From: Hirudinaria manillensis
Taxonomy: Eukaryota > Annelida > Clitellata > Hirudinida > Hirudinidae
Direction of reading: 5' to 3'
DNA: 64,000 bases
Assembly: GCA_034509925.1 (NCBI GenBank)
Contig: CM067530.1
Location: 5,162,501 to 5,226,500, forward strand
Shown in pieces: positions 28,073 through 58,728 of this stretch (positions within the stretch are counted from its first letter, which is position 1; the number at the start of each line of letters is the position of its first letter). The notes beneath the pieces were generated by a model. The model had not been told where the DNA came from and did no database searches. It saw only the letters and a list, made by a program, of their open reading frames with translations. The translations under genes were made by a program, and so were the position numbers.

Positions 28073-31000
28073 TCAATCAGCCTCAGGTGGTGCATCAAGA
28101 TCCGTGTAGCTCACCACCGCCCTCGGGTCTGCTCTCATCCTTCACAAAAAAGATGAGTTGCCATTGGACATGAGACATCAAAATAAGCCACACCAAACAC
28201 CAGTTACCTGTCTCTCCTTGGAAGTGCATGCATGTTTTCCCTCTCCCTCCTGAAATCCGCTCTGTACGAATCATGCCCCCTTACTGCAAACGGAGTCGGA
28301 TAAACGCCTTGAAAAATATTTACATATAATTACTCATCCCATGTTAATCAAGTTTATTTCATTTGAGCATAACAAGTTAAAATCTTTTGTTTAAATTATT
28401 TACCAGGATAGATTGGTGGTCGATAGAATGGATGGTGAACAAATCCATGAGGAATGGGAGGAGGCAGCGGATTGGACACCTGACGCGTCGACGGATGTTC
28501 GGGAAGCTGCAACCTTCTCGGATCGTTGAGATAGTTGTTAAAATAGGCAACCTGTTATAGAGAGCACAACGGCCAAAATGTTAGCCAACATCACGAAGAA
28601 TATTGACAATAAAACTCTTAGACTATGAAAGCAAAGCAAAACCATCTCACTTCTTTTCTGACATCATCAATCTTATCTTCGTGTTTGCTTAAAATATGCT
28701 TCCTGATAAATTCAGGACCCTTAAATTTCTTTCCACTGAGAGGGCACAACCACTTGTCCTTTCCAAGTTCCTGAGTATTGGAGGCAATGAATTTTTCCAT
28801 TTCCTCTTCTTGGTTCTTCCTGCCCAACTTGATGGCATCTGCATCGTCCAGCTCAAACTTGGGGTTGAGGAAAGGTCCGATCTTGTTTTCAAACGTGCTC
28901 ATCCACTCGGTCACTAAAACGGTCGAGCGAGTAAAAAAAGTCGGTTGACATTCTTTCAGATCGTATTTTTATTGTCACTCACCATCTCCAACAGTAATTT
29001 TTGCAACAGTATTGAGACCTCTGGCATGGATTATGCCACACCTGTGAGGCATTTCATCTTCATTAGGATACTCGTAAGCTCCGTAGTAGTCGATCGAATA
29101 AACGATCCTGAGATACAACAACATGCGGTCCAACACCTAAAGAAAAGCAATAATTCATAACAAACATTCATAACAAGAAGTTTTAGACAAAATCAAGACA
29201 TTGAACACATACCATTAAGAGTTCATCATCTCTCTCAATAACCACTTCAGAGCTAGAATCTTTCTCTTTTCCAGATCCTTCGCCTGCAGTAAACCATCAA
29301 ATATCTCCAATTAATAACAATTCATTGCTGCTCAATTCAATTCAATTGATATAAATATTTATAAACTTGTATGTAAAAAAGATGGATAAAAATAAAATCA
29401 ATAAAGCTACATTAGCCTAATTTCCAAATTTTGCTGACCTAGAGCAGCATCTTCATAATCAATCTCGTCGACCAAGAATTCCGTGATGTTCTTAAGAACT
29501 GGATTGTTGGTAACAAATCCCTGAAGCACACAATTTAACAATTGTATAATCAAAACAAAGGCTTCTGCATAAACGATTCAGTATTTGCACGAGAGTCTTT
29601 GTAATCATTCTCAATGATAAATGCATAAATAATAATTGTTGATAAAATTAACAAAACACTAATGTATTCTAATTAATTCAAAGGAAGAATGCAACCAATG
29701 CAGATTCTCTTCAATTATCAGATTCCTAAAGATGGACATCAATTCACAGATGATCCTGAGAACAAACTCACAATTTTCTGCTCCTCTTTTTCTATTGCAC
29801 AGTTCTCATCCCACATTTTCCATCTTTTATCGAGGCTTTGAATGATCTTAGCAGCATGTTTGACATCTTGTTTTGCTACCGATTTGTGCACGGACAATCC
29901 GTTGACGGCCCTCACTCTTTGCCTCAGTTCTCTGTTCACTATGGCACCCATGTCACAATCTCTCACCTTTGTTTACCAAATGATCAAAAGTAACTCATTA
30001 GCATTAATTTACATCAATGGCTTACCCTTTACATCGATCATTAATTTTTGCTTCTCAAGTTATTAGCAATGATTTACACCCAATGCTTACTCTGAGATTG
30101 TTCAAGTTCCAGCAGATGTCCTTTACATTGACATTCCTGTCAAAGGTTATCCAACCCCTCCTAGCAAATCTCCTCTCAGGCTGAGGGTCTTGTATGCTTA
30201 CTCGAAGATATCCAGGGTATCTCTTGCAAATCTGCATTCATTTAAAACACAAAAAATTTTTTTAAAAAATAAATTGATAACGAAATGCAACTAGAAACCC
30301 TACCGATTCCACTTCCTGCTTGGTGATGGAAGGAATGAGATTTCTCAAGAATATGGACTGTGTTCTGTGAAGAGCTCTTGGTTTTGGCTCCACTGAAGTG
30401 TCAACCCCTGACATATTAAAAATCAACTTTCAGATAAAATAAATTCAATAATTTCCAGTTATAAATTACCTTTGATTTCACCTTCAGTTGTCTGATCCTC
30501 TTCTGGATCTTTATTTGATTCTTTGCCAGTTTCAGTTTCATCACCGATTTCCATCTATAATAAATTCTTGGGATGTAAATTTAGAATTTCAACACAAGTG
30601 ATAATGAAACACACCTGCTCCTTATTTTCAGTTGAACTTTGTTCCTCTGTTTTAGATGGACAAGTCTATTTTAAAATTGAAAAATATTAATTGAGATGAA
30701 ATCTTCAAATGTAATACTATAATCAATAGTCTTTACTTCCATTGCTGAAGATTCTGGCTTCACAGTAGCTGATTCTTTATGGTCCTGATCACTGAAGTTG
30801 ACAAAAAGAAAAATAGAAAAATTAACATATTGACTGTTAAGGGAACTTGTTAATGGTTCCCAGCACTGACTTCTTCTCGAGGTTCTCTTGAGCACTCTCG
30901 TTAGCTGCCGCTTCGTCGATAACATCGAGAGCTTTCAAATCATGTTCTGTTCCTCCCTCCATTAGAATAACAGCTGCAGTGATAAAAGAGAGAATGCTTG

Positions 31001-32707
31001 TCAGTGTGCGAATAAAACTTGTCAATGAGGAACAAAGTAGAAACAATAGAAATCATTATCCAATGATGAGAAAGCATGGCGATCACACGAGCACGAGAAC
31101 CTGAGTCGAGGAGGCGAACGAGTTCGTTGCTACAGCTCATGTCGAGAGTAACGGCTGAAATGCTGCCCATGTCCAAAAGCTTCATGAAAACATCTCTTCT
31201 GTGTCTGAGTGAGGAGTTCATTTCTTCTTGCCTCAAAGCATACTCATCTGGATGATACTTGGATCTAAACCTTTGAGATAAAAATCAACCAACCTTTAAT
31301 GATAAGTATGGTAATTGATAAAAAAACAGGCCAGTAGAATCCAAGCTTTTAACAAAATGCACTCAACAGCCCCATCTTACCACACAAGAGATCCAGAAAT
31401 TCTTTCAACGAGCGTGGCATGTCATAACAGATCAAAAAACTAAAGGCCTAACTACCTTACTTTCAACCAAGCTCAAATTAAATAAAAAGCTCAAAATTGA
31501 GGATATTAGCATGTACAATCCAGGTCTTTCATGCTTCCTGTTAAGATAGCTAGCAACACAAATAATCATGATGAAGTTTCTTGTCATTTCCTACAAACAT
31601 CAATCATGGCATACCATTCTTCCTCTTTATGTTGAAGAAAAAATTCTTTAATCTGCTCTTTCTTGAACTCTAGTTTATATTCGTTGTAGCGTTTAAAGCT
31701 TTCTTCGTCCGTGATGTTGTCATCCTGAGTGGACAGGAAGTGTTTGAACGACATCATGGGAGGTTGGGTAGGGTAATCAACTTCAGACCTAAATGGAGAA
31801 ATACAGAACTCAAGTTTTTTCAGTTAATATTTTTATGCTTCTCTAGACTATACTATATAGAACCACATTTAATAGATTGCTTACCCTTTCTGATTCTGAA
31901 TTCCAGATGAGTGAGGAAGCAATGAGATATCACCAGAGGCAGAGCTCCATATGGGGGGAGGTGGACCATGAAGTCTGGGACCATAAGGCACATCATAATG
32001 TGGATAACCTTCGTCCCTGTTCAGCATAAACATAAAAAATTTGTGAATGCTGAAACTCAAAGAGTAACACAAGCTATAATTGAGCACCAGTCTCTTCTCA
32101 TCCTCTTAGCTTGGGGACTGCTATCATTCCTGGCCGGACTTCTTCTATCTCTATGGCTTCTGTCAGCATCCCTTCTATCACGGGACTGTTTAGACCAACC
32201 AGACCTACTGAAAAGGCATTTCACAAATTCATGACTTTTATGATGATTTTTGTTCAGATATAACTACATTATCGCATTTAGGTTAAATTCATCCTGTCCA
32301 TTCACTTTATCTGATCTATATTTATAATATATATTTATAAAAACTATCTTTATAACACCGCTTTATAACATTGCAAAGAATAAAAATTCCTTTCAAGGTT
32401 TGAAAAGCATAATTAACCTAATTTTTTTCTTAAAAGTAACAATTAATATCCAAACTCAAAAGAAAATTTATAAATCAACTTCTTCATGTCATTAAAATGG
32501 CATAGAAATTTTGCCTGCTCCCACTAATATTCAATCTTAACATACATTTAATGCTAAAAGTGGATAAACATGAACACAGGTAATAAGTCCAATAGAGAAC
32601 CTATTCTGATCTCGGCTGCGTCTATCATCTCTTTGATCGTAATCATTCCTTTCATGTCGGAATTTATCACGACTCCTCCTTTCGTATTCATCATCACTGT
32701 CAACCAT
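28073..32707 (-). CDS. SRRT: Serrate RNA effector molecule (ARS2), copy 1
   Basis: ARS2 links the nuclear cap-binding complex to RNA processing, export and decay. Complete gene. Exon 1 (32601-32707) starts [11 protein letters not shown], nearly identical in pattern to the vertebrate start; exon 2 is Arg-rich and ends [12 protein letters not shown]. Then come the conserved N-terminal domain ([10 protein letters not shown], 31.2-31.8 kb), a Glu/Ser-rich acidic linker (about 30.46-30.96 kb), an RRM-like domain ([11 protein letters not shown] and RGWITFDR, 30.05-30.36 kb), the RRVR-type block ([12 protein letters not shown], 29.7-30.0 kb), the zinc finger ([15 protein letters not shown], 28.64-28.91 kb), and a C-terminus reading [16 protein letters not shown], ending TGA at 28073-28075. 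The full domain set of the family is present, so this looks like the functional orthologue. Confidence 0.94.
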
Positions 32708-33457
32708 AGCTATTTCGCTTTATCTGAAACACATCACGAGTGCTTTACGCTTTCTTCAAAAAACTTCAAATATAAAACATCATCGTAAGTGTTTAAATGT
32801 CTGCCTTGGCAAGACAAACAAAACAATTCAAGTGTTAGTTATTTGAGTGAAAATGGATGTGGGCGCCATAGTTAGCAAACAGACTAATAACGTCACAGAT
32901 TATTCACTATCGAACTAACGATATGTGTCAAAGTGACTGGAAGAAATTGAAATGCGTCCTAGCAGAAAAATATATCAAATTGCAAAAGGCAACCCACTCG
33001 CAAATCCAATAAAACACCGACACCAAGCAAAAACAATCAGGCGATAAAAGAATTGTCGGCGACTTATCATTCCAAATATTCTAAAATCTTATTTAAAAAC
33101 ACAACTAAAAAATGCTAAAATCTAGGTAATATAAAACATCATTTAAACTATTGTGTATCATATTTCTTCTTAAAATAAGCTCAACGTTTTAAGATTAATC
33201 GATTTAAATAATGAAAACCTGTAAAATACTTTAATTTACTTATTACTTAATTTATTAGTTAATTAAAATTAAAATTAATCAGAGTGCTAGAAAATTGTGC
33301 CCGTACTTTTGCGACCACAATAAAGAACCGGAGCGCCAAGAATCACATATACTCGATTACAGTCAAATCTTGAGGAGAGAGTGGCATAGTAACAAGGGTT
33401 TGTAAAAACGGCATTATTTTATCAAATAAAAACGGCTTTATTTTCTCAAGTTACCCA
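32708..33457. other. 5' flank of SRRT copy 1; no gene seen
   Basis: Likely contains the SRRT promoter. At 33359 a CAGTCAAATCT motif resembles the end of the pogo-type MITE found at 44331, but no second end was located. Confidence 0.4.
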
Positions 33458-33628
33458 TCAACTCAGTCTTAAGCTCTCAAGAATCGTTAGCTGGTGCATC
33501 TTTCGGCGGATATCGTGCATCTCGCTGAGTAGCCGATCGCACGTTTGCATCACACCGGACTTGCGATTCCAAGTCCAGCAGTCTTGAACGTAATGCTGTT
33601 CTGCCAGAACTCCATAACTGTACTCGGT
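33458..33628 (-). CDS. Terminal exon of an unrecognised gene
   Basis: Follows an AG acceptor (33629-33630) and stays open for 57 codons to a TGA. The peptide begins TEYSYGVLAEQHYVQDCW and ends with an amphipathic helix (CDRLLSEMHDIRRKMHQL), a plausible coiled-coil tail. Upstream exons are not firmly placed; a 70-base open stretch at 33645-33720 (KERMNKRFEEIRAKK) may belong. It could be the end of the gene whose exons lie at 39-44 kb. Family unknown. Confidence 0.45.
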   Translation of the reverse strand, partial: TEYSYGVLAEQHYVQDCWTWNRKSGVMQTCDRLLSEMHDIRRKMHQLTILESLRLS

Positions 33629-33629
33629 C

Positions 33630-35840
33630 TAGATCTCAAGTACTTGGGAAATTAACATTTTTTTGCTCGGATTTCTTCAAATCTTTTATTCATTCTTTCC
33701 TTCAATGCAACAGCCAACGTTTCCACAATAAATATCGTTTCATTAAAATAATTTAGGATTACACAACTTTATTTTAAAAATCGTGAATAGCAATGATGTA
33801 GTATAATAAGAAACAATCTTTTATCCCTTTTACACACTCATTTGATTAAGCAAAAGCATTTGTCGGCACTCTGCCAATGGATATTTGACGTCCAGGACAA
33901 AACGCACAAATTTGCGCCACTGACTGCCCGTCCGAGTATTTCTGTTAGCATGCAGCAGCATATTGCAATCGCAAATGACAGTGCATAGTTCTTCCCCGTC
34001 AATATTAGTGGTAAAAAAGCCTTAAAAATCTAAACACTTGACGAAGGACATGCAGATCTTCACTCCTAAAGAGAGTTTGTGTGGAAGTGTTCAATTAAAT
34101 TGTTTAACCAGCAGACCAGCGTTGGAACCAGGATTTTTGATTCGCTTATCAACCTTCCAAACTTATATGCTTTTAAGAAAGCACTAAATCACCATATTAA
34201 TAACTCGTAATTCATATAATTATGAGAGTTCTCATAATTGTCACCAACAAGTAGATTTGGACAAAATACTTTTCATACAGATTATTTTGTTCGAAACGCA
34301 CTCAAATTCAGTTTATAATGGAAAGTCCACTAGGGAGTCATCTCCCTCAGGACAATTCCTTCCATTTTTTGGCTCTGATTTGTAATTTTTGGTTGTTTGC
34401 CATAATGAATTGACGGAGAACGCTTAAAAAATGCAAACAATTGTTTTGATAATGGCCCTAAGTGATTAGAATTAATAGAAAGTTTTGAAACTTATTTACT
34501 AAATGCAGTTCTACAGTGCGCTTAATTACGTCACACCTCCCCTCATCTAATTTAAACATAATTCCCTAACAGAACCGATCAGGGCCAAATTTTGAATTTA
34601 AATTGAATAAAAGAAGCCTGTAAAATTAATAAAGATGTCTTATTTTGATCGTGTTAAAAATGTTACAAAAGCTTTGCATTTTTCGATGTTAAATCCGTTA
34701 GCGATTATCAGCTTTATCAAAGGAACAGCTTTATCGTAAAATCTGTTGAAATAAACCTCTAATAGATCGAATTCAAGCTTCTATTTCAACAGGCCATCTT
34801 CACTTCAGGAAGTCGTGAACCGAACCCGGGTCGGCTACTAGGAGGAAAACTAGGCTACCTCTACACCAAAATAGTCCCCAAAAATCTAGTTGGTTTGATG
34901 GCAAAATACTGATTTGGATCGGGCGGCACTGCGCGGTGTGTCGCGCCCTTAAAAAAAGATTAAGAACCTTTGCTCTATATATAAGTCAGACTGTACGATG
35001 GGAGAAAATCCCCATCAGCAACTGACCTTAGGGTCTCGTCATCCAAGTCTTTTGAAACACAACTTTAGGATGTAATCAGTGCAAGTGATTCACTAGATAA
35101 TACACATCGAAGCATATTCTCTACTGTAAGGAATCTACCCTGAAAGCAACAGAACGATTAAGATTAGACAAACTTAGCAGAATGAGGTACTTATTCCACC
35201 CAGTTCTCGATCATTTGTTGTCACAAGATCGAGACGAATAATAAGAAACTCACTCTGTAAAAGGATATTTTTCTTAAATTTTAAATATTCTATATATTTA
35301 ATAATCCGTTAAATGTTTTTTGTTGACGCTTAACTCCCACCCAACAAGACATTGTCCCACTTTGTTAACGAATGCATAATTCTCCGAAGCACAACTTTTA
35401 TTTAAAAATATTAACCCCAAGGATTTCGAAAGTCAATTCCATGTGAAGTTCTTTTTATATAATTACAATTAAGTTTGAGAAAATTTTATTATTATTAATA
35501 ATCAACATAATCAGTGATAATGAGTAAGAGCGATATTTTGATAGAGTCATTCGATGGATTTCTCCCTAGTGGTACAGCGTCTCAGAAGGTTAATCTGTGT
35601 GACAAAATTTAACTTAAATTATATATCAGGCGATAAACTTGATCAAGATATCAAGTTAACATAATGCAGCGGTTCGCTAATGTCGATCGGTTAGAAAGAT
35701 TAAATCGTCTTACTATTAATAAATAAATTCGAATTTTTGAATAAATTTGCGTTTCAGTTTTTCTCCAAAGTTTGACAAAAACATGGCAGAGAAACACTTT
35801 GAATAGGATCATTTGTAAAAGAGGCTATAAAAGGTCCTCT
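33630..35840. other. No gene seen; hAT-like terminus
   Basis: At about 34935-34972, GCGCGGTGTGTCGCGCCC is followed by AAAGATTAAGAACCTTTG, the shape of a hAT-element end on the minus strand. The rest is AT-rich and shows no coding pattern on either strand. Confidence 0.35.
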
Positions 35841-35844
35841 CACT

Positions 35845-36860
35845 TCTGAAGAAGCCAAATTTCGACCCTGCCATCACTGCCAATTACAGACCCATATTTC
35901 CACTATGTCTAAATTGCAAATTGTTAGACTCATCCTTTCCAGAATCTGATCTAACATTACCACATCCTCCAACTTCTTGCCTTTCCAATCTGCTTAAAAC
36001 CGGGCCTTGACCTCTCAACTTTTTACACAATTTAGATACTGTTAGACTTAAGATTGATTTGATGGCCCTGCTTTTTCTTGGCTTCAATGTGTCAAGATTG
36101 ACAAAGACCACTGTAAAGCTTCTAGCTGATGTCCCTTAAGGCTCTGTCCTTGGCAATCTACTCTTCACCACTTATACTACCTTTGGCACATAGCACAAGG
36201 ACTTCGGCATCAATATGCTGATGACAAGCCTTTACTGCACATCCTCAAACCAAAGCTTCTCTGCCATAATCTATAGAAGGGAACAGATGCAATCAAAAGT
36301 GGTTGGATTGATGGATGGTTAAATAGATGGGTGTGTGGATGGTTAGATGGATAGTAGGGAGGATGCAGTGGATGAAGGCATTGCTTCCTAAACTACCTTC
36401 AACTAAACCCTTAGAAGTCTGAACTTATTTTCATTTGGATACCCGGAATCCTAGAACTCTTGATCCTCTCTCAACAAACATTGCTTGTACTCTTCTTCAC
36501 CCTACTACTCTAGAACTACTTGGTGTCATCTTTGATTCTCAGGCAAGTTTCAGGGAAAACATCGCCTGCACAGTCAAATCCATCTCATCTGAGCAATATG
36601 GCATATCTGCCCACTTCTCTCCGCTGATTTAACTTCTGCACTTGCTGGCTCTTTGGTCCTATCTTGCCTTGACCATTGCAATTCATTCCTACATATCATC
36701 TTTTCTATCCAATCCATCCAAAGCATTCAAAACAAGCTTGCCTAGCTCATTCTACTCAATCTCACTCTCAATAGCTCTGAATGACTGACTGGTCTGCCAT
36801 TTAAAAATTCATCCTGTGTGATCCAGCTCGAATCATGCTGCCTGTAGAAAATCTTATTAT
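35845..36860 (+). mobile_element. CR1/Jockey-like LINE reverse transcriptase, decayed
   Basis: Reading across stops and shifts gives reverse-transcriptase landmarks in order: ITANYRPI (near 35875), GSVLGNLLFT with one stop before it (near 36140), and the catalytic HQYADDKPL (near 36210), followed by LDHCNS-like sequence near 36680. The element is disabled by many stops. A GGAT-rich simple stretch at about 36295-36370 interrupts it. Confidence 0.7.
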
Positions 36861-37249
36861 CTGGCAAGTAAAATCATGTTCAACAGAACTATTAAACCTT
36901 ATCATTGTAATGCAAAAGTAATATTTCTTGAGTTAAATTGCTCCTGCAATCACTGGATGTATTCAGATCCTGTATTACTGAAATTTCTTTTGCTGGCAGC
37001 TTTTCTGCCTTAGTCAAGAACAATGGCATATCTGATTTGTGATTTACATCTTTGGTAGAAATTCCATATTGTCAAGGCCAACCAGTTCTAAAGAGATCCT
37101 CATCCTCCTTCACATTTCTTTCTATTCTTTTGTCAGCAATGTCTATCACATAATAATAATTTCAATAATTTTGCAAGGTGATTCGCTGGAGTAATTGGAA
37201 GTAATTTGGACATCTTTAAGGTTCCATCTAGTCACTCAAATGGTTGAAA

Positions 37250-37372
37250 ACAAGCTAGCTGGCAGAACCGCAACAGTTAGGTAAGGAAGGAATAATAGGA
37301 CTGAATGACAAAGCAAATGGATAATGTTGGAAGATGTGATTCAGAGATCCCTCTTGGGCTGGACATTGTATT
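37250..37372 (+). mobile_element. R2-like retroelement fragment, 5' part
   Basis: Nucleotide-level similarity to the coding sequence of the retroelement at 61075-62535: the stretch around 37316-37372 (ATGTTGGAAGATGTGATTCA) corresponds to the KWTTWEDVIQRSL segment there. It is broken at 37372 by another LINE. Confidence 0.65.
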
Positions 37373-38094
37373 ATGACTGGTAGACCTCCAAGGACAGTTT
37401 ACAGGATGATGTTGCATGTCTTCTTCAGCAGATTGCGGAATGCTTCTGTGAGATTGCTGCCTGGGCATCCTCTAACCGTCTCCATCTTAACTCTAATAAA
37501 ACAGATGCAATATGGTTTGGTTCTGATTCAAATGGAAAGCTTATCCCTGCAATACCTTTGCATCTTCATGGAGCTGATATTGTTCCGTCGGAGACAGTCC
37601 AAAATCTTGGGGCTTACTTAGATTCTGGCTTGACAATGGATGAGCATGCAAGAAGAGTGTCTGCAAGCTGTTATGCTACACTTCGTGTTCTCAGAGAGGC
37701 AAAGCCATTAATTCCGCATGACACATTTGTTACCCTGGTAGTTCAGTTCATTCTGACAAAACTTGATTACTGCAACTCTCTGCTTACAAATGTTAGTAAT
37801 AGCATGCTCCACTACTATCAGGGTGTGTTGAATGCAGCGGCCAGGCTCATCTCTGGAACCAGGATCTCTGAGCACATCACACAGGTGATGAAGAGTCTAC
37901 ACTGGCTTAAAATACCCTACAGAATATCGTATAAAGTCTCTTCAATAATATATAGTCTTATGCTATGATGAGCCAAAATATATCTCCTCTTCACTGGTGA
38001 AAACAACCACAATACTGGGACGAGCACACCTTCGCTCTTCATCTCATCCCATGTTCCTTGTCCCCATGTCACACAGAACCAGGACATTAAACTA
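37373..38094 (+). mobile_element. CR1/L2-like LINE fragment, nested insertion
   Basis: Encodes the post-YADD part of a reverse transcriptase: WASSNRLHLNSNKTDAIWFG, NLGAYLDSGLTMDEHARRV, TKLDYCNSLL, LNAAARLISG, ITQVMKSLHWLKIPYRI. One 136-codon frame survives at 37558-37968; the remainder needs frame changes. It lies between two pieces of one R2-like fragment, so it inserted later. Confidence 0.75.
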
Positions 38095-38480
38095 TGTGCT
38101 TATTAATTACACGTGTGACCTTGGCAGAGGTTGGTGCACATGATAACTCAACTGGGTCTCTTGAGGGTCACAAATGCAGCAATTACAAAGCATTGTAATC
38201 TGAAGATCTGCTTCCTATGCTAGGGCTTTGCAAACCTCCACCAAAAGTGATGTTAAATACCAAGAAGGGACATCCAATGACTGAATTATTGCTTATGAGA
38301 AGGGATAAGATACTACCCCAGGTGTTAATTGAAAGTGCCAAGAGATGTGATGGACCAGATGGTAGACTCAATGGTTCTGTGTGACAGCAGATTCAAGTAT
38401 TGAAATGCTCTAAAAGCAGTAAAGTATGCAGATATATCGGTGAATAAGTAAGCAAAAAGGCGCTGGATCTACTTATTCAG
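38095..38480 (+). mobile_element. R2-like retroelement fragment, 3' part
   Basis: Continues the similarity to the element at 61-62.5 kb: NYTCDLGRG resembles its NCTYALAHGRYTW, and the stretch 38210-38345 (GGGCTTTGCAAACC, ACCAAGAAGGGACATCC, GTGTTAATTGAAAGTG) matches the segment from FLREGHAHL to LIESGKRPD. Contains stops. Confidence 0.7.
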
Positions 38481-39045
38481 TGTCAGGCCGAGTCCCTTTG
38501 TGACATACCATGTGACCCATTAAGCCCTCAGAACTACACACATATTTTTATGTGGCCCTCAGTTCCTTCAAATTTGATATGCCTGCTATAATGCTTAGCT
38601 ATGAATTATAGGATGAAGGACCAAGAAGAGAGATCAAGAGCATTGAAAGCCAATTGTTTCCTTTAAACCAAAGACTGAGCACAAATTAAAGCAATTAAAA
38701 GAAATTCAGATTGATTTTGAAATCATTGATTTTGATATTGATTATACTATATAATTAAAGTGAGGCATTAAAGAATTTTGAAACTATCTTTACAAATTAA
38801 GAAATGCTGATGATAGTAAAACAGAAATAATACATGACTTGACATTAGAGAAGAAAGGAACAATTTGAAAAATTGGGAGAAACCAAGATTAAGAAAATGA
38901 GGAGAGATTTTGAAGTAAAAGATTTGTCAAGGAACACTAGGATTGAAAAAAAAATAATCCAAGATTTATGCTTAGACATAACCAACTAAAATCAATGTAT
39001 AGCCAAAGAAATAATATGCACTTGCAATTAATATGTAAGACTTAC
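38481..39045. other. No gene seen
   Basis: AT-rich, A-rich on the plus strand; no coding pattern or repeat recognised. Confidence 0.4.
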
Positions 39046-40893: not shown

Positions 40894-41160
40894 TTATGAG
40901 TTTGCATTTTCTGGAGCAATAAATTGAACAGTTTTTTTTCTTCGAATTGCTTTTGTTTCAAAATCTATAACTTCCATTTCTTCATCATCAGGAAGTTTAT
41001 TGTATACAATATGGGCTATGAAGTAAGTTATATTTTTATCTTCTAGCTTTACCAGCACATAATCATCTTTTAAAATCTCATGGCTTGCAGAGTAATCATA
41101 TTAACTTTCTATAGACTTTTGGCCACCAAAAACCTTCAAAACTGCCTGACAAACCATCTT
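40894..41160 (-). pseudogene. Transposon-derived protein fragment, decayed
   Basis: Minus-strand reading gives DDYVLVKLEDKNITYFIAHI and EEMEVIDFETKAIRRKKTV, ending TAA at 40894-40896, with a stop just upstream at about 41103. The pattern (a 'DYVLVK...YF.A.I' hairpin then a basic segment) is one I associate with transposon-linked proteins in invertebrates, but I cannot name the family. Confidence 0.35.
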
Positions 41161-45013: not shown

Positions 45014-47840
45014 ATGTCTTGCTCAGAATGCGTAGCAAGAGCTGTTCGGACAGCCATTTGTTATCCTATTACTTGTGCAACTACACTAGCTCAAGTCAGT
45101 AACTTCTAGATAATATTTCTATACAAACCGCAGCATTATAGAAATTGAAGTTTAAATGGTAGCTTAGCCATGTTTCTGCGGTGAAGTTGAGGGAATATTA
45201 ATATTAACCGAAGTTAGCGGAAAGAATATTGATTTGATGGGCACAATGTAGAAGCAGTAGAAAGCATTAACAATGCATTGATTAGCAGACATTATTCATA
45301 TTTTTAGTTTGGCCATGAACCTTTTTGTCCGCTACTGTCAACGACTCTTTTTGGAAGCCAAGCTTACATGTATCCAAATGTTTTCAGATACAGTATGTCT
45401 TTATTAAATTAAGAATCTTACTTTTATTGATTATTTATGTGTGATTTTGGTTTAGTTAACTTTATCAATATCATATTGTAGTTAGCCACATTTATCAAAC
45501 TGATGGGTTTTTTGGACTGTATAGAGGATGTCACTACTACTTGATTGGAGATGTTATTTTTAGTGTGGTTTCTAGATCACATGAAAGGGTCAGTCCTATA
45601 ACATCTTGTTCACTAAGGGAATTCAGTTAATTCATTTGGCAATTTCTAGAGACCATGTGATGTGGAATTATGCCCCAAGGAATATGAAATTTGCACAGAT
45701 GGAGTTGATAAAAGTCAACTTCAATTTCCAGAAATGATCAAAAATGTAGCATATTATTTTTGAACAAGTTAAACCGAAATTTCATTGCACATTTGTCTTT
45801 AGACACTTCGGAACATTTTCCTCAGTTGTGCTGGTGTAGTTTGCAGCCGTCCCTTTATTGGTAGTAGTGGGGCTTTTGTGAATTATTATTGTAAACTAAA
45901 ATAAAACCTATTTCTCAGTGCTTGGCTTGAGATGTACAGCCCAGTTTGTTGGCAAGGAGACTTGCTACTCGTAAGTAATTGATTTAATTTTACATCAATT
46001 TCAACAACAACAGTTAAGGCAGTCTTTACAACATCGAGTTCATTTGATTTCAGATCAATTTTCTCAGCAGTTTCTGATATTTGGAAAAATGAGGGAATTT
46101 CAGGGTTCTTTGCGTTAGTTAATTATCAATATTTTATTTTTGGCCAAACTGCCATTATTTTACATTGACATTTTAGAGGCCTTTTACCAAGTTTGGTTTA
46201 TGAAGCTTTGACGGTGGCCATTGTAAACAGTCTCTATCATTCTTTACATTCCATTATTGTTTGTGCTGGCCATTCCCCAGGCTCTGTAATTAAATAATTT
46301 TTTTTCTATTGATGGTCCTATTTTAACATATATGTTTCTCAATCCAGGTACTTAAGGATGTCATTTATTTGCTAAGTGTTGTGAGTTGAATTTTTGTTTG
46401 TTGAACCATCTTTGAATTTTGGATTGGATTTTATTAAACTTTTAGTACTTGGGCTTCAAGTACACATACTGGTTCCAGTGGTAGTGCTTGTTACTGATTA
46501 TTCTTTGATAGCTATTGTAGTGGAAAAGAAAATAAATTTCATTTAAATAATTCAGGTTCTTTAGTTCCATTAGACACATTTAACTTTAGTCTAGTCATAT
46601 TTTTTTATGTGGCTTATGATACAAATGATGGCAACTGTGTGGCATTAAGGGATTACAATCAAATTTGGCAAGTTGTACCAACCTGTAGCCAGAGTTCTAA
46701 GTTTTCTGGCTTCCTGTTATCGGAGACTTGTAGCTCCCTTCTGAAGATTTCCCTATCTTCAGAAAGCTCTCATTGTTTTTTGTATCACTTTATAGACTAT
46801 TTGATACCCAACAAACTTTAATTGCTTGAGGCTTTCTTTGGCCTTCTTGTGTTTAATCTTCTCTGCCCAAATTGACTGCAGTGGTCATGGAAGCTTTCTC
46901 TTGTGGCAGATCCAGAATGAGGCTTTGATATTCTTGTCATAGCCTTTGCTTTTTCCTGGCTAGGCATTATTAATGTGTGAATGAGGATGGAGTAAGTCAA
47001 TTTGCTGATCACTCCTTGCACCAACTTATATTGAAAGTTTTTAGTCAGATATGCTGCTTTTTAATTTTGTTCATTTAATAAAAAATGTTGTAAATGAACT
47101 TTCACAAGCATAGTTGCAGCATACAAAAAATTACAAAAATGAGCTTCAGTGCAAAATTAAGCTTATGAAAATTGATGCTAAATGTTGAAAAACTCTTAAA
47201 ATGCTGTTCAATAACTTATTGTGTATAAGTCTTATAGATTTGCTGAATATGGTAGGTATATTGAGCTGTTGCCAAAAAAACTCGATTGAGTTACTTAATT
47301 GATTGTGATGTGCAACCCTCTTGACAATCTCAGTTGCCATATTGCCCTTAAAGAGCCCTAAGTTTAATGTGCCTGTTGTAATTGATATATTTCTCTCAGC
47401 ATTTCTATGGATGATAATTATTACTTCAATTTTTGACATTGAATTTGCAGGCCTTTGCTTGCCGTCTCACATATCCAATTGATCTTACTTCAGTTGTCAT
47501 GGCAGTTAACCACTCAAGGTTTGTTTTGCAGGGAAATTGTTTTGATGTAGAATGCAACTTTTAATGAGTCTTTAATTAAACCACATGAACAATTATTTGT
47601 ATTAATAATTTAATTCAGGTTGAAAGTTGCTTCCACATTAAACATGCCAAAATATAACAGTTGGTTGTCCTGTTTGAGACACTTGAAAGCTAATGTTAGA
47701 ATGTTGATTATTCTCAATAATGACTGCCACCTGAACAAAACATTTTTAATTTGCAACAAAATTTCTCTTATCAGAATCAGACAACAAGGGGCTCAACTTT
47801 TTTCTTTAGGAGATATCATGGGCCAAGCAATTGTACGTGA
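45014..47840 (+). CDS. Mitochondrial carrier homolog (MTCH1/2 type)
   Basis: Outer-mitochondrial-membrane relative of solute carriers; MTCH2 acts as an insertase for tail-anchored proteins. Eleven exons join in phase to 285 residues plus TGA: 45014-45094, 45308-45392, 45482-45588, 45650-45745, 45803-45860, 45919-45970, 46054-46113, 46177-46285, 47451-47518, 47619-47694, 47775-47840. Landmarks match the family in order: VRTAICYPITCATTL, FGHEPFCPLLSTTLFG, TDGFFGLYRG, LRCTAQFVGKETCYS, WKNEGISGFFAGLLPSLVYE, RLTYPIDLTSVVMAVN, RGSTFFFRRY. Vertebrate MTCH2 is 303 residues, so this is full length. Each exon is short, so no long open frame reveals the gene. Its largest intron (46286-47450) carries a retroelement fragment. 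MTCH1 versus MTCH2 was not resolved. Confidence 0.88.
46815..47035 (-). mobile_element. R2-like retroelement fragment in an MTCH intron
   Basis: Minus strand matches the C-terminal end of the element at 61 kb: AAAGCAAAGGCTATGACAAG and TTCTGGATCTGCCACAAGAG correspond to the segments RTKTMTKM and SFWIWQMR there. It is frame-shifted and antisense to the host gene. Confidence 0.65.
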
Positions 47841-48110
47841 AGTGTTGTGTTGCCTCCTGATTTCCACAAAGACTTGCTGAGTTGCAACATGAGCTTTTGA
47901 ACGGAATAAAGATGTAAGCTACTACTGGAAATTTTTTGGGTGATCCAGTTTGCTGGATATATAAGGTGTTGATATGATCTAGTGATACCTCATAAATTTG
48001 GGCATATGACTTCAGTTTCTGAAGCCATGGAAGCCATGCTTGAGCCAAACTATATTTGATGTGGATGAATCAGACTTCAAACCTTTTCAGTTGGACAGAT
48101 GCTAATATTT

Positions 48111-48356
48111 TTATTGCCAATATTTAAATACTTTTTTTGAGCTTCTGTAGGAATTTTTGGCATATCTTTGTATATTTAGCCTAGTGTTGTTTCCTAAATC
48201 TTCACTGGGATTATGTTTTTGCTTAGTGCTTAGTTTTGTTGGTGGAGTAACTAATTTCTCATCACTTGACGGTTTGTGTTGTTTCTTGCGAACTTTGCGC
48301 CAAAATTTATTGAAACCTTCTGCGCTTGGGCACTGGTCTTGGGCCTGTGGCTTCAT
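48111..48356 (-). CDS. Possible basic protein or first exon
   Basis: 81-codon open frame starting MKPQAQDQCPSAEGFNKF, rich in Lys, Ser and Asn. It could be a first exon with a donor in AAAAAAAGTATTT near 48130. No family recognised and no firm downstream exon; chance is possible. Confidence 0.2.
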   Translation of the reverse strand: MKPQAQDQCPSAEGFNKFWRKVRKKQHKPSSDEKLVTPPTKLSTKQKHNPSEDLGNNTRLNIQRYAKNSYRSSKKVFKYWQ

Positions 48357-48399
48357 GGTTCGTGCTGGTATTAAAACCGATTTATTTTCGTACTAAAAA

Positions 48400-49510
48400 G
48401 CCCTTAGCTTTTGAGGTTTCTAGTTTTGGATCTAAAATCTGGGGATGGGTAATAATGGGGAAGTTAATATAATTACTAAATAAAGGTAAGCAATTTTTAA
48501 ATTTCTAACCGATTTGAGCGGAGGTATGGGTACCGGCAGTATTGCATAGAGTCCGATCATCTCATACTTAAGCGATTTACCTTACAAGCCTTGTTTGGCG
48601 GCAGTGGATGTGCTTGTGTTATTTTTTATTACTCCTGAAGAAAAATTTAGTTACCCTAAAAATTTTCGTGATCGTAGGCTTTTCACTCACCAAACATAAC
48701 ATCAAACAAGAAACAGACTGGAATTGCCCAAAGGCATTTTTGATGTGTTGCCTCATCGCATTGCATTTTCTGGCCATTTCTTCATGAAGATGGATGTGCT
48801 TTATCTAAAGCAGCAGCCTGTTCCTCTCTGTAGGAATTCATTGTGCGTTTTCTTATCAAGCTTGAAATAGTTATTGTAAATTTTTATTTTGGTTATTGCC
48901 TAATTTTACGTTGTCGTCAGATAGACACATTTCAGCGTTAGAACATTCTTCATCACCACTTGAATTATGCCACTTTTTTGTCTGGATATCATTGTTCAGA
49001 ATAAAAATAATGGTAAAACTAAGTAAAACCATTTTCAAACCTTCAACAGAATTAACCTAAAATAACTCCCCAGCAAACACAGCCCGTTTGGCCGCATCAG
49101 CTAAACAATTTTGATGTTATTTAGTTTGAAAATTCTCGCTAAAGTAGTCGCTGGTGGAGAGGATATTATTTAACTTTGAATTATGGTCATAATTTGTAAA
49201 ACTTAGTTTGCGTCTCTTTATGGACTGAGCCACGTGGTCAATTCTATAATATGAAGAAAAAAGATGACGCTCGATAGCTTTCAAATTGCTATATAAGCAT
49301 CGCAACAAATAGAAATCAAGACTTAATTTCATCCGCCTTTAACGATGACGAAACGAACAAATAAAATTCTACAATTTAAAAATTACAATTATGAAATAGG
49401 CCTATATTAATTACAAATTCACGTTAGTAAATATGATTTACAAATAAATAATTCAGTATATTTATTCTTATTTTAAATGTGATATATATGTGTAGGTATA
49501 TATATATATA
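48400..49510. other. No gene seen
   Basis: AT-rich intergenic DNA downstream of MTCH. No convincing exon, RNA gene or repeat was recognised. Confidence 0.4.
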
Positions 49511-49680
49511 CAAGGTTCTACGAGGAGTGTTAGAGGCCACCAAAGTAGCGGTATCCAGAGCAAACTCGCGCGCAATCTCCAAGCAACGGAAGTTTTACTT
49601 CCTGCGCTAGGGCTTCGCACACCTCTGCAGAAAGCGATGCCAAACGCCAAAAAGGACATCCTTGCAGAGGCATGTTAATG
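49511..49680 (+). mobile_element. R2-like retroelement fragment
   Basis: Reads EATKVAVSRANSRAISKQRK, then HLCRKRC, a near copy of the element at 61-62.5 kb (EATKAAVTKANSRAISKQRK). A stop replaces Glu in the FLREG segment. Orientation plus. An AT microsatellite (TATATATA) precedes it at about 49477-49510. Confidence 0.8.
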
Positions 49681-50203
49681 AGCTGAATTTCCCATACGTA
49701 TACCACCACTAACCCAACTATTTAACAAGCCAAGATCAGTGTGCTGAAGATGGTCTACCCATTTCGGCTGGACTACCCTCGTGGTTATCTTGTAGAACCC
49801 GTGATCAAATATGACTTGTACCCATCATCCAAACTTTTTGGGCCCTATTTTTGTTTGCTGGGATGGCAGCTCGTTAGAGCCTGGAAAAGACGTTACGCGT
49901 CTTTCGCACCCGAACGGGCTAGCAATTGTGTAAGTTACATTATAGTAACGCTTTTTTCACCGCAATAATTAATAGTTGGTAAACTTGTAGAAGCCGTTAA
50001 ATGTTACACCTCACCTATCGAGGTGACCGAGATGTCATTATTCGAAATGCTCATTGCAAAATTTTACAATAAAAGTTTATGGGACTATACTGATTAATGT
50101 TAGACTGGTTTAAGCGGACCTTGTCGGTTACCATCACCTTGCAAAAAGTATATCCAAGGAATTTTTAGTAAGATGCATCAGGAAATCGAAATTACTACCA
50201 CTT
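49681..50203. other. No gene seen
   Basis: Between the retroelement fragment and the stop of TOMM70. A 75-codon plus frame at 49741-49968 has no recognisable features. Confidence 0.35.
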
Positions 50204-53200
50204 TTATTCAGCAAGATTAGCAAGCCTGCATACTTTTTGTTTTACCTCGGCAGTTATCATCATATGGTACAGTTCAGCGAGTTCTACCTCATTTATACAA
50301 GAAATGATGGCGTCTCTGGTCACTTGCATACAACTAGTCCAGTCATTCCTGTTAAAAATAAACACCATAGTCATAAACATTCTCATTAAACATCACAAAC
50401 TGAACTACCTTTTAAGGTCAAACTTTGCACGAGTCCAGTGGATTTGAGTAAACTTCTCATCTAACTCCATGCCTCTCCCCAGGAGTCTATAAGCTTCCTC
50501 AAGGTCCCCACATTCATTATAAATAGAGATTCTAGTAATTAATTTATGTCATATTAGAAGACATTCACAAATGTAGCAAAAAAAAGTCTTACGCTTTTTG
50601 GTCATAATATTTAGGATTGGTGGGATCCAATGAAATTGCTTTATCAAAGTACTTCCTAGCAACTGCAAATTCTTCAGTCTCTGCAATAATCTAAAAGGAT
50701 AGACCTTAATTTATGGAAAATTTTTACGGGACACATCAGACAAAAATTCCAAGTTAATTCAAATTAATTCAACTCATTGATATGCATAGATTGAAGAATT
50801 CACCCTATTCAACAGACATTTAGAAAAATCTCATAAATGATTCTCATGACATGCCAAAATTAAACATTTTGTTAAAATTAATAAAAACGATTGCAGGCAT
50901 CAATAATAGAATAATTAACCTCTCCGTAGAATGAATGTACTCTGGGACATGATGGAAATTTCTCAAGGAGAGCATTTAAGCATTTCTGGTATTGGATACC
51001 TTTATACTTTTTTTTGACTGATAGAAAATAAAAATAAAGATTACAAGGAATAGCTTAACATCTTCAGAAAATACAAACTTGCAGAGCATCTTTTAATATG
51101 AGGATATGACAGTTTATCATTGAGAGATATGCATTTTTCAAATTCTTTTATTGCCAGATCCATATCCCCACAATTCAGCCATGCCTAAAGAAGAGTGTGG
51201 AATTACAACACATTCGAAACATGGACATTGACTTACATATCCCATAAGCGTGTAGGTGTCTGGATTATTTGGATTCAAATTTTGTGCTCCTCTTATAATT
51301 TCAATGGCTTCCCCCATATTATGCATGTGCATTTTCACTTTTGCCAATTTTAGGAGGGCATTGGTCGTAATCTGTAAGCACAAACAAATTGAATAAAAGC
51401 TAAGTAATATCAATATAACAATTTGAGCTAACCTTAATGTCAACATTTTCTAAATGCAAAATATCCAGCAAGTCCTTCTTTGCTAAATCATACTGACAAC
51501 TCAAATAATAGAATGTTCCTCTCATGAGGAGTGCTTCTACTTTATGCTCTGAAACCTCCAAATTCATTTCTTCTGTACAAAGTTTAACAATATTGCTGAA
51601 GTTATTGGAATAAAACTCCTTCAATGCCTTTTTGAAGGGGCTGAAAAACAAGAATATAAAATAATGTGTAATTTAATATTTTTTTATATGAATATTTTTA
51701 TTATTTTTTATTATTAAATAAAAAATAGTAAGATTGTCATTACACATCTATGAAAGGAAATGCTTAAACATTATTTATAACCTCTCAACTTCATCTTCTA
51801 TGTTTGTGGATTTGTCTGCTCTGAAATCTTCTTTCTTATATTTGAAGACTGGATCCTGAGAGAAGTACTGAAGTTTGTCCCAAACATAAGTCGGTGAAGG
51901 AATGAAAACAGATCTAATCTACAAGACATAACATATTATGTAATTACATAGTTGAAAGTAATATTCTAACAGATAATTTATGAATAATGATGTATTTCAA
52001 TTCAAATTTCAGCTGTACTTTCATACTATAAACAGCAATCAATTTAATTAATTATATACTACACAATATTTATTGTTATATAAAAAATGACCCCAGTCCT
52101 GGATGGTTTTATTTCAGAAAACAAGACAATCTGGCCCCAGTTGGATTAAAAAAAAATCCTACACCCCTATTAACATGTAAATATGATTCATTTATGCTAA
52201 ATAAAAGGGTTCCATCTGCTTAGCATCAGAATTATTTTTCTTTTCATAGTAATACTTGGCTCTTCCCCAATGATTGTGTGAGCTGGGTCTCAAACATTGT
52301 GATTAACATATGAGGGAACAAAACCATCTGAGTTAACTGTTTCAATAGCTTGTTTCAAGCTAGGGATTGAACACAATAGTAACATAACTAGTGTATTTCT
52401 GACCATTGTTTGCATGCACACTGCCCATTCAGTCATCCTGCAGGTGTACAAGGTGTCTCATAAAAATGAATGGACAACAAGTGTCTCACTAGTAGGTGAT
52501 GCAATATATATCCATGCAAGTCTTGGTATATCAGGGAAAGACTGCATTTAAACTTAACCAAGAATATCGATCTGAGTGTCAAATTTGAAGTACTATATTT
52601 TCATGAAATTAACACACACACACAGCTGTAACATGCTTATGAATTGAGTAGAAAAAATTGAATAAAACACATATCTATATCATGTAAGTTGCATGCAAAC
52701 ATAAAACATGCTTTATATGAATGAATACAATAGTTCAATGAGACAATCTCATTGAGAGTGCACCAATCTAGCATTCATACTCAGGATTAGGTAAAATCAT
52801 TTGTAAATCACAATCACCTCTATTGAAAAGTTCCTTGTTGTGAAAGTTGTTATTCACCCAACTTAAATATAAGCTGAGTCATTGCTACTAACCTTGAACT
52901 ACTTGCTTTTGAATTCAAGGCCATTTGACAAAAATTTAATATTCTTGATGAATGAAAAAGTAGCCTCGACCATGCTTATTTAATAAAACATAAAAGGTGC
53001 ACCCCCAAAGAGCATTGAAATAAGTTAATTTTTAAAACAACAAAAACATGACAAAAAGGAACCTGAAATATTTGAACAATTATTACCTAAAAATCAAATG
53101 GGAAAACCTGGAAAAAATGACCAGATTCCATATTTGCTGGAGCCAGAATTTTGTACATTCATATTTATGTGTGTAAAATCGAACATTTTTAAATTATTGA

Positions 53201-54063
53201 AAAACATTGTTTAAAACAATTCATGCTTAGAAATTATCACTCATTTAGAAACATTTCAACCACAAAAACTAGTTTAATATACCTTTAGGTTATCACTAGC
53301 TCTCATATCACTAAGCACCATAATTGCTACTTCAGCCAACTCAAGATATGATGTTTTCTTCTCATTATCCAAGATGTTTGCCAAATAGATATCTGATAAT
53401 GCAATTGGTTGTAAAGAGTAAGTTGGTAAAATTAAGTTAGTTTATCAATATTTTGTTTATGATAAAGTATACCTTCAATGCATTCCAATAAGAATCCTGC
53501 TTCACAATAGGCTTTTCCTCGAAGGTAAAGAGCATTGACATTTGTTGAATCTAATTCTAAGGCTTCTGTACAGTCAGCAATTGCTTGCTTGTGATTATTC
53601 TAAAAGTTAACCAAACTTTGTTTCATATTTGAGGTCTTAGATGATTATGGCTGTATGCCTTACCAAGTGCATCTCAGCAGCTGCTCTATTCTGATAGAAT
53701 GTAGACATTTCTGCTTTAACTTCAGAACCCATGTCAATTGCATCGTTATAACATTCAATTGCTTCAGCATACCGGCCTGCTATGAAATGCTTATTTCCTT
53801 TTCTCCTATAAGCAATGGCTTTGTTTTTGGCCTAAGCAACAAAAAGCAAATATGGTTTATCACATTAGAAACACATCATGCAATATAAGTATCTTCAAAC
53901 TAATTAGCGTAATCCCTATAACAATGAATTTGATTTCATTCAATCAAATGATGCTCACAATACGGTTTTGGGAATGATTCCAGCAGAGATAAAACCCAAC
54001 AACAGCGCCAGGCAGGCCGATAGCCAGGGCCATCTGCCAGTTCCTCCAAATGTCAGTAGTCAT
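50204..54063 (-). CDS. TOMM70: Mitochondrial import receptor subunit TOM70
   Basis: Outer-membrane receptor that takes carrier-type preproteins from Hsp70/Hsp90 and passes them to the TOM pore. Complete gene of about ten exons. The start at 54063 gives MTTDIWRNWQMALAIGLP, with a membrane anchor (about residues 11-28). TPR repeats follow: KGNKHFIAGRYAEAIECYND and STFYQNRAAAEMHL (the clamp TPRs binding the chaperone tail), NVNALYLRGKAY, then a charged linker (VFIPSPTYVWDKLQYFS), and further TPRs including VEALLMRGTFYYLSCQYDLA and LNPNNPDTYTLMGY. The end ELAELYHMMITAEVKQK matches the family's last helix; stop at 50204-50206. An upstream acceptor at about 54107 suggests a non-coding first exon. 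Confidence 0.92.
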
Positions 54064-55389
54064 TTGAGCTGTTGCAACTTTATACTTAGGTGCGATCTAT
54101 GAAAAATTGAAGAATGATAAATCGTAACACTTTCCCGAGCCAAAATCGTAAGACTCTCTCAAGCCAAAACAATCTACATCAACATCCGAAATCTAAGTGC
54201 AGCCGGAGTCACCGCAACCACGTGCGAGCTGAGCGAAAGACACCTATTAAACCTTTGCTAGTATAGTATGGTAGAAGAAAATATTATATATATATAATCA
54301 ACATAAAATTAATATGCTCATTCGCTATCATAAATGAATTTATCTAATTGATCTGTAGATTTTTAAAATTATAAATCACTCTATACAATATAAAAAAAAA
54401 TTGATTTTAAACTTCTTTTTGTGAAAATGCTCTTCGTGATATATCCAAAAGGGTTTTCCGTGTTTATTTAACTGAATTACTATCTGGCGTGTCCCGGGCG
54501 ATGGTCATAATTAAAATTCCGTTGGTATTCAAGTCAAGCCATGAATCCGTTGATGGACTTTCATTTTCCAACTCATTTCGGCTGGGGCCTCTCCGTCGTT
54601 GTTTTAATTGCCTGGGTCGCTAACCTGACCTCGACAGTATTTTGTGAAAATAGAGTTTAACAACACCGAAACCTACTCTTTGCTATGTTTCAGCTTAGTC
54701 AACCCGTAGACAATTCGCAGACAATAGCGGACAGGCACTTTAACTCATCGCCAGCGAATCAGCTTTTGTCAGCCACTTCCCAGATAACAGCCCGGAGGGG
54801 TCCGCCCGGACCCGTTTGAACCTATTTGCGGGTCCCGCGTAGGTTTTATCCCCGGGGATGGCGCGTAGGCCCCGTGAGGGCTGCTCAGCTATTAATCTCG
54901 GGTTGCCCCGCCAAATCCCATCCATATTTCGACACCATTAATCGTGTATCGACCGCATCTAACCCGCCACAACTAATCACTAACAAACTATTCTTTTTTG
55001 TAGTTCTTTTTTTGTCAATTCTTGCTATCCCTTATTATTATTATTTTGTTATCGGCACTTAACTGTTCTACTTCTTTTGTTCTCTTATATGTTGTTTATG
55101 GATTAGGTACAAGACATTCGCTTCAAACGGCTTAGAATTGATAGTTATGTGATTTAAATTTTGGAAAGACCAATAGAAACACGAAAACAATAAATTGATG
55201 AACAAATTAATGGCTTGTTCTAACTTGTCAATTTTCACTCAATATGTTTTATATTAACTCACTGCTATTAGTGTTATGTCAAAATTAGCTATGTAGAATA
55301 TCAACTGACAGCTTCCGATCATTTTTTATTGTTTTAAAACATCCGAACATTAATTCATTATATCTATAATACCATATAATAAACTTCCA
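54064..55389. other. Intergenic, with GC-rich patch 54740-54960
   Basis: Promoter side of TOMM70. The patch at 54740-54960 (CCCGGAGGGGTCCGCCCGG, CCCCGGGGATGG) stands out sharply from AT-rich surroundings; it resembles no gene I know and may be a repeat related to the GC-rich patches at 16.7 and 40.1 kb. Confidence 0.4.
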
Positions 55390-58300
55390 CTAATCGCTAG
55401 ATTCAGCATCATAATCATGATAGCTGATGATTGGTCTTCTATCTAAATGATTACTGAAAACGATTAAAAATATATAGTAAACAAATCATTTAACAGCAAC
55501 ACCTTGTCGCTTTAATTATGAATTCAACAACTTACCCATTGTTTCGGTCTCCGAAGGACGTATTCTGCAGATATCTTCCCCTTCTCGGATGTTGTTGGTG
55601 ACTGTTGAAGCCTATCATATCATGTCGTGTTATTTAGTAATGACGTATTACAATATTATTGTTGATTAATTCTTTTCAAATAACAAATTTCACTAACCCG
55701 GACCATCCATAGGAAATCGTTCGTATGAATTATCGTATACTGGTTGTGGTGGCAATGCTGGAAATGAGTGATGGTTCGAAGGATGTTCTGGCAGGCTTGG
55801 GCGATTAGGGTCACACAGAAAATTATTGAAAAAGTTTATCTGAAATTTAATAAAAATTTAGTTACTCTTGACATAAATGATTTGTTGATTTTTATCACCT
55901 CTTTCTTAACATCATCAATCTTATTTCCATGTTTGCTGAAGATGTGCTTCCTGACAAACTCAGGCCCCTTAAATTTCTTTCCGCTGAGAGGGCACAACCA
56001 CCTGTCCCTTTCAATCTCTTGAATGTTGGAAGCAATGAACTTCTCCACTTCTTCCTCTTGGCTTTTCAGACCCAACTCCAAAGCTTCTCCTCGGTCCAAA
56101 ACAAACCTTCTATTTATGAAAGGTTCTGTATTTGTCTCCTGCATCGTCAGGTATTTGTCAACTGAAATAGTTAATTTTAGATACGGTTACTTATTTGTAA
56201 GTCACTGACAAGATAAACTAATTTGTTAATTACCTTCCCCTTGAGTGAAATACTGTCTGGAATTGACGCCTCTGACGTGTATGATGCCACATCTGTGAGG
56301 CATTTCATTTTCTTGATGATATTCGTAACCTCCGTAAAAGTCAATAGAGTATACGATTCTTAGGTAAAGAAGCATAATATCCATAGCCTATAAAGACAGT
56401 TGTGATTAAATTTCATTTCAAAAAGGACAAAATCAATGGTTTACTTTTAAAAGTTCTTCATCACGCTCAATTTCTATCTTTAAGTCTTGGTTGCGATTGT
56501 TGACAATGCCTACAAACATTAATTGTGGTTTACTTTCAAGTTCTCCTTTCACAATCACCATGATCATTCATAATTAAACTCAATATGTAACCAACCTAAA
56601 ACAGCTTCTTCGTAATCCATTTCGTCCACAAGAAACTTAGAAGCATTTCTTAAAATTGGGTTTTCGTGAATAGAATTCTGAAACATAATTACTAAATGCT
56701 TAACAATAATCGAAATTTTTATTTCTTGCTTATTTACACTAAAGACGCTAAAAATTAAACTAACAATATGCTCCTTTTTATCTCCAGACTGTTCCCACAT
56801 TTTCCACTTTTTGTCTAAACGTTGAATAATCTTAGCCGCATGTTTGATGTCTTCTTTCATTACTGATTTGTGAACAGATAGTCCGTTGACGGCTCTCACT
56901 CTTTGCCTCAGTTCTCTGTTGACCACAGCACCCAAATCGCAATCTCTTACCTGGAAATAAAGTCATTCAATTGGTTATTTTCATTAAAAATGCAATGCAA
57001 TATGATTTCAATCAAATGTGAATAATCCAAACTTACCCGTGTTTTATTGAGCTGTTCACATATCTCGACGACGGCAGCATCACCGTCAAACGTAATCCAG
57101 CCCTTACGACTGAATCTTTTCTCGGGCTCTGGATCTTGGACACAGAGCCTCAAAAAACCAGGGTAATTTTTGCAGATCTGAAAAGTAATGATGTATATTT
57201 ATATTCAAAAAACCTCTGAAACGAATTATTATTAAACCTAAGGCTAACCGATTTGATTTCACTTGCTGCAATCGTAGGACTGATGTTTTTCAGGAAAATC
57301 GACTGAATTTTTGTTTCGCTTGATTTATTATCCATGAGATTTGATGCTACAATTTACATTTCATTCAAAATTAATGAGTATTCATTCGAATCGTTAAAAC
57401 TCCGTTTCGTCGCTTACCAAAATCGAGTAGTTTTTCAAGTTTTTCACTGCAGCTTGTGTCAAGACTCACGTCTGTCAAGTCAGCCATACCCAAAATCCTC
57501 ATAAAAACATCCTTTCGTTGCTTGTAGGAGGAAGCCTTTTCTTCTTCCTTAGCTTCGAATTCTCCGGGGTAATATTTGCATTTAAACCTACAACATCGAA
57601 AATGTAATAAAATCTGCTGCACTGTAAGATGCAATGTCTAAAATAATCGAGATACTATTTCCTTCCAAATATTTTCGTTGAAGCATTATTAAACTTAAAA
57701 TTTCATCGCTCACCAATCTTCATCTTTGTGCTTAAGAAAAAATTCTCTGATTTGGTCTTTGTTAAATTCTGCCAAATACGTTCTATATCTTTGCATACTA
57801 TCTTTTTCTGTAACATCGTCTTCCAGAGTAAAAACGAAGCGTTTAAAAGTCAGCTTTGGAGGTTGCGTGGGGTAAGGAGTTTCCGGGCTGCGGTGAACAA
57901 ATCGAATTTTTAAAAAATTGATCCAAATTCACTTAATCTACAAAATGTTGGCATTCGAATATTTGAACTCACCAGACGTACATGGAATGAGACTGAAATG
58001 GAGCTGTAAAAGGAGCCCCCTCATTTCCGTGTCTACAAATATTCACGATTAGTTAAAATTGCATTAGCAATGTCTTAGCCAATGTATGTCAATGTATCAA
58101 TGTCTTAGAGTGATGGTGGTACTTACCCGAAACGCCTGAAAGTTTCATAATTGTGATTGGGAACATTAGGACCCCATTTCTGAAAATTTCTGTCATTCCT
58201 ATAAAAACGGATGTTTATTTGAAAGTCTTTTGCATTTTAAGGTTTAATATAGATTTGAATCTATCAATAATTAATGTCAACATAAAGTTTCTGATTTGCT

Positions 58301-58728
58301 TAAGCAAAGCTAATTGTTTCTAATGCCACTACTAACCAGCCTTTCCTTTCCCTTCTGCCATTTCGTCCTGAAAAGTCCTGACGAACATACTCTGAACATC
58401 TGCGTTAAATAGTACAGATTTCACTTAAAAGAAACTATTAAAACTTGATGGGACGAGCTTGTGTTCGGTAATTATTAGAATCATATGTTAATTATCAAGG
58501 GGCTAAAAATAGGAACCTGTTTCGTCTTTGATTTGACGGATTATTGAACCTGCTTCTTCTGGCTGACCCCCTGCTACTTCCACTTCCGCTTCTCGATTCC
58601 CTTTTAAACCTCAACGATCTGCGTCGACTACTTCGGCTTCTACTGCGACTCCTACTTTTACTTCTGCCGCGTTCTTCATCACTGCTGCTCGTGTCACTGT
58701 CACAGCGACCTCTGAATTTCCTTCCCAT
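55390..58728 (-). CDS. SRRT/ARS2 paralog, shortened, with RS-rich N-terminus
   Basis: Second ARS2-family gene, same strand as copy 1. The start at 58728 gives [19 protein letters not shown], then an Arg-Ser tract ([13 protein letters not shown]) not present in copy 1. Conserved parts follow in order: N-terminal domain ([14 protein letters not shown], 57.7-57.9 kb; [14 protein letters not shown], 57.4-57.6 kb), RRM-like domain ([15 protein letters not shown] and [12 protein letters not shown], 57.0-57.3 kb), [12 protein letters not shown] block (56.6-56.9 kb), RGVNSRQYF region, zinc finger ([19 protein letters not shown], 55.9-56.1 kb), and a reduced C-terminus [16 protein letters not shown] with TAG at 55390-55392. 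The acidic linker of copy 1 between N-terminal domain and RRM is missing. Exons are open and splice sites intact, so it looks expressed rather than dead. Confidence 0.9.

Follow-up and report, generated by a model that had tools for sequence, protein, structure and literature searches.

ARS2 is an adaptor that connects capped RNA with RNA-processing factors and, together with the cap-binding complex, helps to set the fate of a new transcript: export, processing or destruction. In human ARS2 (SRRT; PDB 8pmp, 6f7j) the C-terminal 27 residues are enough for the cap-binding complex and are apparently the sole contact with it, and the double change R854A/Y859A leaves no measurable binding (PMC5670239). 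The same source describes R854 and Y859 as absolutely conserved in metazoan ARS2 and Phe871 as well conserved, though not absolutely so, and three lysines of the human protein are the binding site for short acidic motifs found in competing effectors (PMC5923425, PMC10720265). More distant are Arabidopsis SERRATE (PDB 3ax1), relative to which the RRM has been described as metazoan-specific (PMC5923425), and fission yeast Pir2 (PDB 7qy5). A survey of 88 SE/ARS2 orthologues, as excerpted, reports the gene as single-copy across opisthokonts, with in-paralogues, a few of them lacking the N-domain, in a few plant lineages (PMC7154892). Within the excerpts of the literature searched for ARS2 duplication we found no animal case. 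One paper considered as a report of an ARS2 paralog (PMC11265314) was set aside, since the word refers there to NDUFS2 in the 12 places shown of 19.

The window, by which we mean the whole 64-kb stretch of leech DNA analysed, carries two ARS2 genes, both on the minus strand, as a preliminary description made from the letters alone had proposed; its premise that a single copy is the norm is in line with the survey above. Copy 1 (28073-32707; 19 exons, 773 aa) has the canonical make-up and copy 2 lies at 55390-58728 (16 exons, 673 aa). Both models are open, both match human ARS2 (8pmp_D; E 2.9e-172 and 1.7e-120, respectively), and the families PF04959 (ARS2) and PF12066 (SERRATE_Ars2_N) are found above the Pfam cut-offs in these two proteins and in the third copy presented below (3/3). 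The spliced models of all three copies were built by hand; those of copies 1 and 2 have GT-AG introns throughout (18/18 and 15/15), and as their splice sites were picked by eye, the open frames and the common intron positions are the stronger evidence. A hexamer resembling a poly(A) signal (ATTAAA or AATAAA) starts 77 bases past the stop codon of copy 1 and 60 bases past that of copy 2.

The pair is real, yet it is not the full set, and here the preliminary description was incomplete. Across the 148.4 Mb of genome searched, PF04959 gave three matches over the cut-off among 5 candidates scored, namely the window pair and one on contig C8. The search ran exon by exon and only the best candidates were scored, so that these gene counts are lower bounds, as are those of the cap-complex partners NCBP1, PHAX and NCBP3, with one match each (2/2, 2/2 and 6/6 candidates scored); the matched stretch of NCBP1 runs through one stop. 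Copy 3 (C8:1856176-1866862), modelled from 19.4 kb of C8, has 20 exons and an open frame of 826 aa. Its 19 introns comprise 16 of the GT-AG and two of the GC-AG type, and one (C8:1865178-1865438) that starts with a perfect ATATCCTT and ends in AC, which we take to be the form of minor-spliceosome AT-AC introns. This intron, chosen as the one pair with ATATCCTT among 15 in-frame AT-AC pairs, interrupts an exon left undivided in the other two copies; one GC-AG pair could substitute for it in frame, and no GT-AG pair could. It is either a minor intron gained in copy 3 or one lost from copies 1 and 2. U11 RNA has one match above the gathering score in the genome, and Rfam gave none at gathering scores within the 64-kb window.

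To compare the modules of the three proteins, residues of human ARS2 were mapped onto them from PMC5670239, PMC5923425 and PMC10720265, with PMC12350170 as context. All three copies resemble the human protein in having both Pfam domains, an RRM-like domain between them, and a zinc finger with the effector-binding lysines K719, K722 and K734 kept. The finger is encoded by an exon of 263 bases in copy 1 (exon 16, 28651-28913) and in copy 2 (exon 13, 55899-56161), and a 13-residue stretch of it is the same in both; the finger is almost unchanged, as had been claimed. The seven residues followed in the RRM and basic patch are kept 7/7 in copy 1, 4/7 in copy 2 (R425K, R463K and R470G) and 5/7 in copy 3 (R470P and R497S); the four metazoan RRM residues among those mapped (F423, R425, R463 and W465) are complete in copies 1 and 3 and reduced to 2/4 in copy 2 by two R-to-K changes. 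In copy 2, R425K falls in exon 7 (57249-57346), which leads from the end of the N-domain into the RRM, and the equivalents of R463 and R470 in exons 8-9 (56765-57177), which encode the larger part of the RRM together with the segment behind it. The acidic linker spans 108 residues (31 D/E) in copy 1 (exons 6-10, 30304-30973, running into the RRM) and 103 (26 D/E) in copy 3. In exon 7 of copy 2 it has shrunk to 12 residues with 2 D/E, and the loss first noticed there is confirmed.

The C-terminal ends set the copies apart in another way. Copies 1 and 2 share with human ARS2 the equivalents of R854 and Y859, the cap-complex contacts, in their last exons (28073-28139 and 55390-55453). DLDAP is kept in copy 1 and changed in copy 2, where D-Y-D-A stands without the P. 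The C-terminus of copy 2, thought to be shortened, is barely so (90 residues from FNN to the end, against 101 in copy 1), and both contacts are in place. Copy 3 (113 residues from the same point) has N at the R854 position, ends ahead of Y859 and lacks DLDAP, i.e. it differs from the human protein by the absence of the tail; its SERRATE_Ars2_N match begins at position 13 of 110, part of the N-domain being lost. None of the three copies has the equivalent of the terminal Phe871, which puts even copy 1 outside the metazoan norm. Judged by these residues, the clearest functional change among the ARS2 copies would be that of copy 3, outside the window.

The three ARS2 copies are old, constrained genes. 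Copies 1 and 2 are alike as DNA only along 4 exon stretches (69-82%). Fourfold sites, counted at codons with the same residue and the same first two bases, match at 34/88 (copies 1-2), 36/99 (1-3) and 18/57 (2-3), and dN over the core is 0.29, 0.33 and 0.48 for the same pairs. The NG86 method gave no dS for the core (value -1), and with so few fourfold matches we call the synonymous sites saturated. Intron positions are nonetheless largely common (same phase, within 3 alignment columns): 12 between copies 1 and 2, out of 18 and 15, 10 between copies 3 and 1, out of 19 and 18, and 9 between copies 3 and 2. The locally similar exons hinted at gene conversion between the two window copies, which found no support in a permutation of synonymous matches (p 0.42). 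In an unrooted four-row tree copies 1 and 2 stand together against human ARS2 and copy 3 (support 99/99), a grouping at odds with the plain view that all three copies are specific to the lineage, and copy 3 may be no such duplicate. Once pieces of SERRATE and Pir2 were added (six rows, with long-branch warnings) no fork among the four ARS2 reached 80, and a clade of all three leech copies was not rejected (AU p 0.31). Both added proteins are distant: SERRATE resembles the leech proteins in the N-domain (E 3.3e-12) and weakly in the C-terminal core (E 0.0018), and Pir2, in the longest end branch of the six-row tree, in the C-terminal core and zinc finger (E 1e-08). One ARS2 duplication could have its source in the ancient genome duplication that has been suggested, at Ks 2-4, for the clitellates (leeches and earthworms; PMC11371463, as excerpted).

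Transferring functions from the human residues, we lean towards a reading in which the three paralogues have split the modules of one adaptor, copy 1 holding the usual job, copy 2 a cap-linked subset of it, and copy 3 the effectors without the cap. Copy 1, canonical and slowest to change, would most likely do the ancestral work of linking capped RNA bound by the cap complex to effectors with ARS2-recognition motifs. Copy 2, which has no acidic linker, starts with an RS-rich stretch and evolves fast in its body, might serve that complex and those effectors as well, in some tissues or for part of the transcripts. Copy 3 may bind effectors, and perhaps RNA, free of the cap; lacking that tie, it would compete for (titrate) effectors or act on them away from capped 5' ends. 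A bolder version, which we put forward tentatively, is that the lineage made a cap-free ARS2: copy 3 would divert PHAX, NCBP3 or exosome adaptors from capped 5' ends or work with them cap-free, and the cap-linked tasks would be shared out between copies 1 and 2. If true, the leech genes would amount to a naturally occurring separation-of-function set in nuclear RNA sorting. Three old, open ARS2 copies, one of them without the cap-complex tail, would offer a direct way to ask what an ARS2 untied from the cap does.

Other explanations bear on these genes to different degrees. The circumstance named in the preliminary description as one that would undo the duplication, two haplotypes or an assembly join, is as good as ruled out for copies 1 and 2 by the fourfold and dN values given above and by a likeness limited to four exon stretches: synonymous saturation and largely common intron positions make them neither haplotypes nor recent duplicates, and their different make-up is real. 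The introns are, moreover, unrelated in sequence, and NCBP1, PHAX and NCBP3, with one match each among the candidates scored, are not multiplied. A less easily dismissed view, though still an unlikely one, takes copies 2 and 3 as remnants of old duplications that have no distinct role and serve as back-up or decay slowly, the tail loss of copy 3 being a step of that decay. Both do evolve faster than copy 1: among 497 ungapped columns, the sites unique to one copy number 12, 43 and 42 in copies 1, 2 and 3, respectively (relative-rate test, p 3e-5 and 4e-5 for copies 2 and 3), a pattern that relaxed constraint would fit as well. Copy 3 has also lost its tail and part of its N-domain, and the suggested clitellate genome duplication would supply old duplicates. 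Decay, however, would be expected to break what is intact here, three open frames and a nearly unchanged finger, despite saturated synonymous sites.

SR proteins are defined by an RS domain acting in splicing, and the preliminary description saw in copy 2 an SR-like start and a duplicate specialised toward splicing or another cap-linked task. Exon 1 of copy 2 (58517-58728) does open an RS-rich start, with 16 RS/SR dipeptides over 134 residues, where copy 1 has 9 over 118 and copy 3 has 0 (shuffle p 0.041, 0.154 and 1), but the enrichment is modest and the start of copy 1 is Arg-rich as well, so that the SR-like character holds in part. With the cap-complex and effector residues kept, the second option, another cap-linked task, fits copy 2 better, and a specialisation for splicing through the RS-rich start seems improbable. 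More improbable still is that the last exon of copy 3 is mis-modelled and that the true protein retains the cap-complex tail. The exon comes from a hand-built model only and measures 52 bases, but it lines up with the ADP stretch in the final exon of copy 1, and AATAAA follows 76 bases past the stop. In the three plus-strand frames of C8:1866500-1870400, R....Y matched seven times, 0/7 with a D.DA-like stretch, and D(L/Y/F/M/I)DA(P/E) is absent from the 19.4 kb around copy 3.

Upstream of copy 1, an acceptor-like TTTCAG (window 32708-32729, minus strand) ends 16 bases before the start codon, and a CTTGCAG (C8 about 1856133) ends 42 bases before that of copy 3; these sites would mark either an intron in the 5' UTR or a site of spliced-leader addition. 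The ARS2 pair is flanked on one side by exons of an RME-8/DNAJC13-like gene (window 15614-15925, minus strand) and on the other by those of a Tctex-1 family gene (59628-60293, minus strand). Two further open frames were seen in the window: one of 468 residues (25920-27326, plus strand), with no Pfam family over the cut-off (Cyclin_C_2 reaching 16.8 of 27 bits), and one of 496 residues with zf-RVT, retroelement-like (61075-62565, minus strand), inside the 2 kb of the window where GC content is highest.

Elsewhere in the assembly, COX3 matches C9:3029041-3029805 and C23:2626-3390, the latter on the mitochondrial contig, with the same score and the same length, the two properties by which they were compared; the C9 match is either mitochondrial DNA copied recently into the nuclear genome or an error of the assembly. 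Bases 1-5000 of C23 carry, as read by eye and for COX3 by match, cox1, cox2, atp8, cox3, nad6 and cob, interspersed with the tRNAs N, D, G, Y and Q. The placement of nad6/cob directly after cox3 is the annelid pattern, a move that, according to the excerpted source, may extend more widely in Lophotrochozoa (PMC2639372).
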